Below the pieces are notes generated by a model. That model did not search any database, was not told where the DNA came from, and saw only the letters and a program-made list of their open reading frames with translations. A stretch of 64,000 nt of DNA from Desulfatiglans anilini DSM 4660 (GTDB lineage: Bacteria; Desulfobacterota; DSM-4660; Desulfatiglandales; Desulfatiglandaceae), in the NCBI RefSeq assembly GCF_000422285.1, contig NZ_AULM01000003.1, positions 124,001 to 188,000 on the forward strand. Direction: 5' to 3'. Shown piece by piece: positions 19,332 to 59,877 of this stretch (the first letter of the stretch is position 1; each line of letters begins with the position of its first letter). Both the position numbers and the translations under genes were made by a program.

Positions 19332-19386
19332 ACACATCTTATGATTTATACGCTATCTGTTTTCGAGAGGCAAGTCTAATTTGTTT

Positions 19387-19605
19387 CCATCCGGAAATGG
19401 TCTTTTTGGCCAATCTCGGCGCCAATCTGCACGTTTGCTTGTGCGGCGATCTGCAGGTCGCCTCCGCGCAACCGCTTAATTTCCTTGATATTGGCCAAAC
19501 CGGGACCCGCCCCGCAGGGGTGGGACTGAGCACACGCAGCGTGTAAAAAAAATCCTCATTTCAGGATTGGAAACGGGGTTCTACCGCGAAATCATTTCCG
19601 GATGG
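19387..19605 (-). repeat. full-length CCATCCGG MITE-like element, copy 1
   Basis: The 219-bp element has terminal inverted repeats CCATCCGGAAATGG at the left and CATTTCCGGATGG at the right. It carries the same interior as the 59-kb copy in opposite orientation, including AATCCTGAAATGAGG, CTGCAGATCGCCGCACAAGC and GATTGGCCAAAAAG blocks. No transposase is encoded. Its end overlaps the Nudix gene and provides that gene's last codons and stop. Confidence 0.85.
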
Positions 19606-55932: not shown

Positions 55933-56595
55933 GGCACTCACTCCCTGGATAATCCTTCCCAGGCTCTTGCCGCGCCCTGGGAAGTCAAAGGGTTTCCACC
56001 CGTAAACGCAATTGCACCGACTGGTTGTCCTTCCAACTCCTGCCGCACACATCCCGAGTTTTTGAGACGTACGGACACCGGCAGCATCGAGCCGCGGCAA
56101 CCGCCACGGCCCTCCGCCGCACAACACAACGGCCGCCTGATCAGCCGATAGGGTTCTTTTCGGGTCGAAAACCGTTTTGAGACATGGCGCGCCTGACTCC
56201 TTCGCCCGCACGCACCGCAGGCGGATCGAATCGGGGTTATCCTAGAGCATCGGCTCGGAAAGGTTAAACTTTTTTTGTCTTTCGCCGCATTTCCTTTGGT
56301 GATATCGTAGGATTGAAGAACGCTAGGAGCGATCATGCGGAGATGATTTCCCGGCACAACCCCGTTTCCGATCCGGAAAGGAGAGTTTTTCTTCACACCC
56401 TTCGCATGTTCGATCCCACCCGTTCGGGGCGGGTCGCGGTTCTGCCAATACCAAGAAAATCAAACGTTTGGGCGGAGGCAGTCTGCAGGCCAACACACAA
56501 CCAAACCTGCAGATCGACGCCGAGATTGGCCAAAAAGACCCTTTCCGGATGAGGACTTCTCGAATCACATGACCCCCACCGCAGGAGGAAAGATC
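55933..56595. other. intergenic region with a full MITE-like copy
   Basis: About 660 bp between the divergent reductase and FGE-like genes. The right part is the MITE-like element (56332-56553). The left part (55933-56331) has a long open frame on the minus strand but no start with RBS or recognisable product. Confidence 0.55.
56332..56553 (+). repeat. full-length CCATCCGG MITE-like element, copy 2
   Basis: About 222 bp. The left end (GCGGAGATGATTTC) is diverged and the right end (GGCCAAAAAGACCCTTTCCG then GATG) is well kept. The interior holds the CTGCAGGCC, CTGCAGATCGACGCCGAGAT and CACCCGTTCGGGGCGGGTCG blocks in the same order as the other copies. It ends 42 bp before the FGE-like start codon. 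Confidence 0.8.
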
Positions 56596-57545: not shown

Positions 57546-58982
57546 ATGGGATTACGCAAAGGCCAACACATCCGGATCGAAATCGTCAAGGCCGCTTTCG
57601 GAGGTCGCGGGATCGGCCACTTCGAGGGCCGCGTTGTATTCGTCCAGCATGCCGTCCCCGGCGATATCCTGCAGGCACAGGTTGTCAAGAAAAAGCAGAA
57701 CTGGGCGGAGGCCCGCTTCGTGGGGCTGATCCGGCCGTCCAGCGACCGTATCGTCCCTCCCTGCCCATTCAGCGGGTATTGCGGCGGCTGTCAATGGCAG
57801 CATCTGACGTATGCAAGGCAGTTGGCGTACAAGCAATCTTTCGTATCGGAAAGCCTGGCCCACATCGGAGGACTTAACCATGTCACCGTGCACGAAGTCC
57901 TCCCATCCCCCGCCCGCTTCGGCTACCGCAACAAAATGGAATTTTCCTTTTCCGACAGACCGTGGCTCCTTCCTCATCAACTTGGCTCTGGCCTAGCCCC
58001 ACCCCCTTTTGCGCTCGGTCTGCATGTTCCCGGGACCTTTTTCAAGATCATCGATCTGGATTCGTGCCTTCTGCAGAATGAAGAAGGCAACGTCATTCTC
58101 TCGGTGGTCAAAGACTTCGCCCGGCAATCGGGGCTTCCTGCATACGGGCTGAAGAGCCACGCGGGCTTCTGGCGTTTCCTGACCGTCCGTCGTTCGGACG
58201 CATCCGGGCAATGGCTGGTCAATCTCGTAACGGCCCAAAGCAGGCCGGACACCATGCGCGCCCTCGCGGCGATGCTGGTCGAACGGATCGAAGGGGTCGC
58301 CACCGTGGTCAACAACATCCATTCAGGGAAGGCCTCCGTGGCCATCGGCAGCCGTGAAGACCTGATCTTCGGCGAGGGATTCCTCGAGGATCGGATCGGC
58401 CCTTACCGCTTCCGCATCTCAGCGAACTCCTTTTTCCAAACCAATACGGCCGCAGCCGAACTCCTTTACCGAACCGCCGGTCGATACGCCGGACTCACGG
58501 GGAAGGAAACCATCCTGGATCTCTACAGCGGGACCGGGACCATCCCGATTTTCCTTTCCGATCAGGCTGCACAGGTCACGGGGATCGAGATCAACCCCTC
58601 TGCAATCGAGGACGCCCGCAGGAATTGTGAAGTGAACCACATCCGAAACTGCCGCTTCCTATGCGGCGATACCCGAGAAATCCTCAAAACGATCGGGCAG
58701 GCCCCGGATGTGCTCATCGTCGACCCGCCCCGCGCCGGACTGCACCAGGCCGTTCTTCAGCAAATCATCGACCTGAGGCCCGAAAAGGTCGTTTATGTCT
58801 CCTGCAACCCGTCCACTCTCGCGCGGGATCTGGCCCTTCTCGCACCGGGATTCGAAACACTGGAGATCCAGCCTGTCGACATGTTCCCCCACACATACCA
58901 CGTCGAATCGGTGGCGCGCCTCGTCCGCCGCAGACCTTTCAGCGCTTTGGGCTCAACCCTCCCGGAGCATTCGACAGCCTGA
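57546..58982 (+). CDS. rlmD: 23S rRNA (uracil-C5)-methyltransferase RlmD/TrmA family
   Basis: The 478-residue product has an N-terminal TRAM domain, a [4Fe-4S] site CPFSGYCGGCQW with a later Cys (DSCLLQ), and the SAM-binding LDLYSGTGTIPIFL. The catalytic motif is VSCNPSTLARDLALL. It methylates a uracil in 23S rRNA; RlmD or RlmC assignment is not certain. The start at 57546 lacks a clear RBS. Confidence 0.9.
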   Translation: MGLRKGQHIRIEIVKAAFGGRGIGHFEGRVVFVQHAVPGDILQAQVVKKKQNWAEARFVGLIRPSSDRIVPPCPFSGYCGGCQWQHLTYARQLAYKQSFVSESLAHIGGLNHVTVHEVLPSPARFGYRNKMEFSFSDRPWLLPHQLGSGLAPPPFALGLHVPGTFFKIIDLDSCLLQNEEGNVILSVVKDFARQSGLPAYGLKSHAGFWRFLTVRRSDASGQWLVNLVTAQSRPDTMRALAAMLVERIEGVATVVNNIHSGKASVAIGSREDLIFGEGFLEDRIGPYRFRISANSFFQTNTAAAELLYRTAGRYAGLTGKETILDLYSGTGTIPIFLSDQAAQVTGIEINPSAIEDARRNCEVNHIRNCRFLCGDTREILKTIGQAPDVLIVDPPRAGLHQAVLQQIIDLRPEKVVYVSCNPSTLARDLALLAPGFETLEIQPVDMFPHTYHVESVARLVRRRPFSALGSTLPEHSTA

Positions 58983-59035: not shown

Positions 59036-59316
59036 CCATCCGGAAATGATTTCCAAGTAGAACCCGGTTTCCAATCCTGAAATGAGGCTTTTTCTTCAAA
59101 CGCTGCGCGTGCTCAGGCCCACTTCTCTAATTGCACGGCTGCTGGCACCACATCAGCCACACGCTGCACGCGCTCAGTCCCAGTGCTTCGCGGCGGGTCC
59201 CGGCTTGGCCAATTTAAAGGAAATCAAGCGCTTCCGCAGAGGCGGCCTGCAGGTCGCCGCACAAGCAAACGTGCAGATTGACGCCGAGATTGGCCAAAAA
59301 GGCCTTTTCCGGATGG
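59036..59316 (+). repeat. full-length CCATCCGG MITE-like element, copy 3
   Basis: The 281-bp copy runs from CCATCCGGAAATGATTTCC to GGCCTTTTCCGGATGG. It matches copy 1 (reverse orientation) block by block, with an extra roughly 60-bp segment in the middle (around 59110-59175) that looks like a partial internal duplication (CTGCGCGTGCTCAG and CTGCACGCGCTCAG). It ends 14 bp upstream of the rpsU promoter -35 box. Confidence 0.88.
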
Positions 59317-59330
59317 AACCCAAAAAAAAG

Positions 59331-59358
59331 TTGACAGAGTTTGCGAAACTTGTATGAT
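59331..59358 (+). promoter_or_regulatory. promoter of the rpsU leader
   Basis: TTGACA (59331-59336) and TATGAT (59353-59358) are 16 bp apart, just after the MITE-like copy. It lies about 330 bp upstream of rpsU. Confidence 0.75.
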
Positions 59359-59364
59359 GGTTGG

Positions 59365-59667
59365 TCTAGAGTTTATCCGACGGAGAATCCCTGTCAGGGC
59401 GGGAGCCTTTCAGCCCCGGGTTCGAAGAAGGTTAAAGGGGGTGATTATTATATGAACAGATCCTTTCTTAGACACCATCCGGTGATGGATCCTTTCGGCA
59501 TAGGCAAGCTGGAAGCTCTTCTTTCCCGACGTGGGTGCCCCTTTCCTTCACGGCAGGTCGAAACCTCTCATCAGGTGGGCTGATGTGAAAACCGCACTGT
59601 AATGGGCTGTTAAGGCCCCGGAAGGTTAGGCAAGCACCTTCAGCTGTGCGCTGAGGTGCTTTTTTTA
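59365..59667 (+). promoter_or_regulatory. structured rpsU leader with attenuator
   Basis: The leader between promoter and rpsU contains a 43-codon ORF (59452-59583). A small GGGC/GCCC hairpin (59604-59618) follows, then a terminator (59632-59667: AAGCACC/GGTGCTT plus TCAGC/GCTGA, loop TGTGC, then TTTTTTT). An alternative stem GAAGGT (59621-59626) with ACCTTC (59636-59641) would break the terminator. The arrangement suggests transcription attenuation; the ligand or signal is unknown. I find no convincing match to a named riboswitch. Confidence 0.6.
59452..59583 (+). CDS. 43-residue leader peptide upstream of rpsU
   Basis: An ATG preceded by AAAGGGGGTGA at seven-base spacing opens a 43-codon frame (MNRSFLRHHPVMDPFGIGKL onward) ending in TGA 50 bp before the terminator. 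The strong RBS argues for translation. The peptide has two RR or HH pairs and no recognised motif. Its stop position relative to the hairpins suits ribosome-coupled attenuation. Confidence 0.5.
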   Translation: MNRSFLRHHPVMDPFGIGKLEALLSRRGCPFPSRQVETSHQVG

Positions 59668-59691
59668 TTTTTTGCATCGAGGTACGTCATT

Positions 59692-59877
59692 ATGAAGGTG
59701 ATCGTTCACAACAACCAGATCGAGAAAGCCATCAAGGATCTGAAACGGAAACTGACCAAGGAAGGATTCTTCTCAGAGATCAAGGAGAGACGCTTTTACG
59801 ACAAACCGAGCGTCCAGAAGAAGAAAAAGCAGGCCAAAGCTGCCAAGCGCCGACGTAAAAGGATGAAACGCATCTAA
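59692..59877 (+). CDS. rpsU: 30S ribosomal protein S21
   Basis: The 61-residue product MKVIVHNNQIEKAIKDLKRK onward, with a C-terminal Lys/Arg-rich tail, is S21. The ATG at 59692 is the family start; upstream in-frame codons lie in the terminator and T tract. GAGG precedes it. S21 is often regulated separately from other ribosomal proteins, in keeping with the leader. Confidence 0.95.
   Translation: MKVIVHNNQIEKAIKDLKRKLTKEGFFSEIKERRFYDKPSVQKKKKQAKAAKRRRKRMKRI

Follow-up and report, generated by a model that had tools for sequence, protein, structure and literature searches.

A conserved leader with a candidate ribosome-mediated transcription attenuator precedes rpsU in Desulfatiglans anilini and its relatives

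The window, i.e. the whole 64,000-nt stretch of Desulfatiglans anilini DSM 4660 DNA that was analysed, comes from a genome of 4.67 Mb in 107 contigs and carries rpsU, the gene of ribosomal protein bS21, behind a leader whose parts are collected in the table below. A consensus promoter, a 43-codon ORF with an excellent RBS and a terminator stem had been predicted ahead of S21 from the DNA letters, and all three were recovered: the promoter was found as stated, the Shine-Dalgarno of the ORF (SD1) paired with the genome's own 16S tail at −19.4 kcal/mol, and the terminator hairpin with its T-run has an equivalent in 52 relatives. A comparable promoter was located 20–127 nt 5′ of SD1 in 40/52 relatives. 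The MITE-like copy noted near the promoter is real as well; the repeat spans 59036–59318, ending about 12 bp before the −35 element, occurs in >30 copies of 77–91% identity in the own genome, recurs within the window in several more complete or partial copies (among them 19385–19605 and 56334–56551), and is no part of the putative rpsU attenuator. Also upstream of rpsU, an RNA m5U methyltransferase gene (TRAM and tRNA_U5-meth_tr domains) occupies 57546–58982 of the window, and many relatives likewise show a recognisable 3′-end of such a gene ahead of rpsU.

Table. Features of the rpsU leader and its putative target gene (window coordinates).
Feature	Position	Strand	Remark
Sigma-70 promoter TTGACA-16-TATGAT	59331..59358	+	11/12 to consensus
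SD1, extended Shine-Dalgarno AAAGGGGGTGAT	59434..59445	+	13 bp with the genome's own 16S tail, one G-U
Leader ORF, 43 codons (MNRSFLRHHPVMDPFGIGKLEALLSRRGCPFPSRQVETSHQVG)	59452..59583	+	ATG at 59452, TGA at 59581-59583
Strand A, candidate antiterminator 5′ strand, GGGUGCCCCUUUCCUUC	59533..59549	+	Duplex and co-variation tests; covariance model match from SD1 to B
SD2 AGGTGGG and minimal ORF ATG-TGA (AGGTGGGCTGATGTGA), overlapping the leader ORF stop	59573..59588	+	
Strand B, candidate antiterminator 3′ strand	59621..59640	+	3′ part is the terminator 5′ arm
Intrinsic terminator AGCACCTTCAGC-TGTGC-GCTGAGGTGCT and T-run	59633..59666	+	Hairpin 59633-59660
rpsU (bS21), putative controlled gene	59692..59877	+	Pfam Ribosomal_S21, E=1e-16

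A blastn search with the leader DNA retrieved only the sister species of the same genus, at 95% identity, so that the search for relatives had to be anchored on rpsU. Alignment of the regions upstream of rpsU from 52 relatives revealed a common plan, namely SD1 followed by the terminator, and the recurrence of terminator, ORF and SD 5′ of rpsU across two families is, on this sequence comparison, more than chance. The covariance search upstream of rpsU that the original prediction had proposed was carried out with a model built from 34 aligned leaders, and matched 51/85 genomes of the host order, probably Desulfatiglandales, at E≤0.1, with each match just 5′ of rpsU and all from families f1 and f2; the sole additional match within the order was weak (G019, E=0.07), and 0 matches were obtained in families f3–f6 among these 85 genomes. 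A sample of 395 genomes of the phylum yielded no convincing match outside the order: three matches (G335, G346 and G382, E 0.004–0.009) were rejected upon inspection of the loci L250, L251 and L252, as L250 was devoid of the SD motif, L251 was the leader of a different gene and L252 had the SD motif alone, before an unrelated ORF. Every part was present in the leaders held out of the model and the tests (G002 contig 385 and G054 contig 36), and the divergent G023 retained SD1, the open frame and the terminator. The ORF, stems and terminator, on whose conservation in relatives the original prediction had staked itself, were conserved in the 52 leaders and both families, and the leader appears to be a conserved RNA switch specific to rpsU, found essentially nowhere else. 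Some further occurrences were observed. AAAGGGGGTGAT lies at two more sites of the own genome (L222 and L224), before very short ORFs just 5′ of larger genes, and in two tandem copies before the unrelated gene of L251; G054 has a second rpsU with a full leader at a contig edge (L248), possibly contamination; and the rpsU leader of genus g29 (L076/L078) kept SD1, the ORF and an SD2-like site and lost the terminator.

Across the relatives' leaders the conserved extended Shine-Dalgarno reads AAAGGGGGUGAU. In the window, SD1 was stronger than the best (−18.7 kcal/mol) of 57 long-ORF starts scored, a comparison lenient to the ORFs since the best start was picked for each, and over 52 leaders its mean was −19.9 kcal/mol (range −22.1 to −16.8). 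The SD of rpsU itself was weak, at −8.5 kcal/mol in the window and −8.1 kcal/mol on average over the 52 leaders. When the −13 kcal/mol threshold of the Bacteroidota extended SD was applied, with an energy program differing from that of the source paper, an SD at or below it was determined in 52/52 leader ORFs versus 2/52 rpsU genes.

The leader ORF has roughly 25–55 codons in the relatives, and the start codons inferred after SD1, which were assigned by a fixed priority rule, are ATG (27), TTG (11), ATA (8), ATT (3) and GTG (2). The frame set by the start stayed open over 30 codons or more in 47/51 leaders versus 12.2 expected from dinucleotide shuffles, a count that includes three starts (L047, L052 and L100) re-chosen after the frames had been seen; without these it was open in 44/51, versus 17/102 for the other frames. 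After the inferred ATA/ATT starts it was open in 10/12 leaders versus 2.8 expected. Within genera, substitutions were spread over the codon positions (113/90/108) with no third-position excess, and 47 synonymous and 181 nonsynonymous codon changes gave no synonymous excess, upon which counts a peptide function was dropped. That the ORF encodes a functional small protein or an arrest peptide is indeed very improbable: a weak common pattern, M-x-G-S..YECFQTF, speaks for it, but the shared residues fall on RNA pairing segments, the ORF frame of L039/L043 is not the ECF frame, and the peptides have neither repeated codons nor a Pfam match. Nor was a regulatory codon run detected, i.e. no peptide had ≥4 of 5 equal residues in its first ~30 codons. 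With the frame kept open and no selection on the peptide, it seems to be the translation of the leader ORF, rather than its product, that matters, and the conserved frame and SD argue for a translated leader ORF with its own RBS.

Strand A lies ~93–96 nt after SD1 in most leaders. The competing GAAGGT/ACCTTC stem of the original prediction was half right: GAAGG (59621) does belong to the conserved antiterminator, but its conserved partner is the CCUUC that closes strand A (59545–59549), inside the ORF, and the partner named at 59637 was wrong, that pair being a local hairpin inside B whose sequence is not kept in relatives. The own-species A:B duplexes averaged −19.1 kcal/mol versus about −11 kcal/mol in control windows, and own-species pairs were 3.4 kcal/mol more stable than cross-genus ones, with 29/35 genera in this direction (p=5e-6); taken singly, both halves of the helix were significant (p=0.003 and 0.0065), while flanking control windows were not significant in the same own-versus-cross-genus test. 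When the leaders were aligned by MAFFT without regard to structure, 74% of cells were paired in the P1/P2/A:B structure, dropping to 42–57% when the partners were slid, and 59 cells had changed on both sides versus 41.5 in shuffles (0/500); kinship may inflate the shuffle statistics, the cross-genus test and the slides being the better controls. Neither a helix between SD2 and the linker (P3) nor an A:SD2 pairing had co-variation support, and both were rejected.

Since A:B and the terminator both use strand B, the two are mutually exclusive, as expected of an antiterminator and an intrinsic terminator. In folds of leaders that stop short of the terminator 3′ arm, A:B was the default pairing, with a median of 0.62 of A bound to B, and at equilibrium the terminator was favoured over the antiterminator by about 5 kcal/mol, so the choice of the switch must be kinetic. 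Folding with a ribosome at the ORF stop left A uncovered and A:B intact, and A:B was abolished solely by a ribosome over A; translation across A is thus favoured as the off-state. Near the ORF end, 26/35 genera versus 3.1 expected have an SD-like tetramer and a start codon that runs into a stop within five codons, and this second RBS with its near-immediate stop probably delays or re-seats ribosomes there.

The original prediction had left attenuation by ribosome position and attenuation by a ligand side by side. The ligand branch was not supported, and a metabolite riboswitch was dropped for want of a conserved core: apart from SD1, A and B, the aligned leaders had almost no conserved columns and showed no aptamer-like core separate from the ORF, and Rfam had no match to the window leader up to E=5 and none, up to E=1, when the leaders of 12 relatives were searched. 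The ribosome branch gained support from the conserved and co-varying ORF, SD, antiterminator and terminator. Judged from sequence and computed folds, the leader is probably (roughly 0.6) a ribosome-mediated transcription attenuator controlling rpsU. When no translating ribosome is on A as B emerges, A would pair with B, giving readthrough and rpsU on; with efficient ribosome starts on SD1, A would be occupied and B left to the terminator, turning rpsU off. A ribosome at the ORF stop would leave A free, so timing would matter.

What such an attenuator gauges is a more tentative matter. We propose, at somewhat less than even odds, that it reads bS21 status, with S21-dependent initiation on an SD-reliant ORF setting rpsU transcription, a circuit evolved apart from that of Bacteroidota. 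As the frame depends on SD pairing (a 13-bp SD, often with a poor AUA, AUU or UUG start), leader initiation would report how competent 30S subunits are in SD/anti-SD pairing, a property that we infer to depend on bS21; when S21 is scarce, the leader would be poorly translated and antitermination would raise rpsU expression, i.e. negative autoregulation. In E. coli, SD pairing is reportedly aided by S21 (PMC10931766). In Flavobacterium, however, S21-free ribosomes have a preference for the extended SD that rpsU carries (PMC9976891), which is opposite to the sign assumed for the leader and counts against the sensing proposal.

The polarity of the same attenuator may also be reversed, with A freed by a ribosome on SD1 or on the second RBS so that rpsU expression needs translation. 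In the window genus, CCCCUUU of strand A is complementary to SD1, and this A:SD1 pairing could turn the untranslated state 'off'; of 57 matches to CCCC runs, potential partners of SD1, 36 cluster at +70 to +89, the RNAalifold structure of the alignment has SD1 paired with A, and SD1 occupancy reduced the terminator probability in several species. We nevertheless consider this polarity unlikely, as a ribosome at SD1 left A:B unchanged on average over 44 folded species (0.59 versus 0.59, p=0.65) and SD1:A had no co-variation support, SD1 being nearly invariant. Rather unlikely, too, is sensing of general translation capacity or growth rate, via the supply of ribosomes or initiation factors, in place of bS21. 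It draws on the control of infC by IF3, which the AUA/AUU starts recall, and on the ampC attenuator of E. coli, where an RBS with a start-stop minimal ORF precedes the leader terminator; in the rpsU leader the corresponding element is a second RBS that ends a longer ORF, and an antiterminator is present. A growth-rate device would be expected at other ribosomal genes as well, whereas the covariance model matches lie before rpsU, and SD1 equals in strength the rpsU-specific extended SD of Bacteroidota. As for a classical autogenous leader, with free S21 or another r-protein binding hairpin P2/P1 and setting the switch, P2, right after the start, co-varies across genera (p=0.004), but in the window genus and in several further ones the hairpin is weak or missing, its loop lacks conservation, and in the reviewed case of S21 control the protein acts as part of the ribosome (PMC10931766), which leaves this option quite improbable.

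The putative attenuator shares with the trp/his type a translated leader ORF and mutually exclusive antiterminator and terminator with one strand in common, and differs in having no regulatory codon run, in that strand A lies inside the ORF, in controlling a ribosomal protein gene, and in that the sensed step is probably initiation. It would thus function like a leader-ORF attenuator outside the amino-acid-sensing subtype. In the B. subtilis rplJL leader an r-protein gene is likewise controlled by termination, and there an r-protein complex binds the leader RNA (PMC4538822); the rpsU leader differs by its translated ORF, and no protein-binding mimic is evident in it. The bS21 autoregulation of Flavobacterium johnsoniae and other Bacteroidota also ties rpsU control to an exceptional SD, reported at −14 to −21 kcal/mol and 9–13 bp (PMC9976891), a strength like that of SD1. 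In Bacteroidota, however, the extended SD is on rpsU itself and control is translational, whereas here it is on a leader ORF before a transcription terminator, in another phylum and probably with the opposite sign; since the own SD of rpsU is weak, the leader is not the Bacteroidota extended-SD system. Regulation of rpsU outside Bacteroidota has been described as unknown (for E. coli; PMC10931766), and within the open literature, subscription papers being outside the scope, we found no description of rpsU attenuation or rpsU leaders; rpsU is unmentioned in PMC2965389. A conserved rpsU-specific leader with an equally extreme SD in another phylum suggests that evolution may have used anti-SD pairing on more than one occasion to read the composition of ribosomes, S21 present or absent, and in this leader the readout would act at transcription termination.

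A different arrangement was observed in family f4 (L085, L088, L090, L091, L095 and others), where rpsU has neither the attenuator nor an SD close to its start, and an SD of the extended kind (−17 to −21 kcal/mol) is placed 34 or 61–76 nt upstream; in the longer spacers a hairpin is seemingly present that would bring this SD near the rpsU start. In one genome of this family, a cobalamin riboswitch (Rfam E=2.5e-20) lies close to rpsU at L090:1788–1999.
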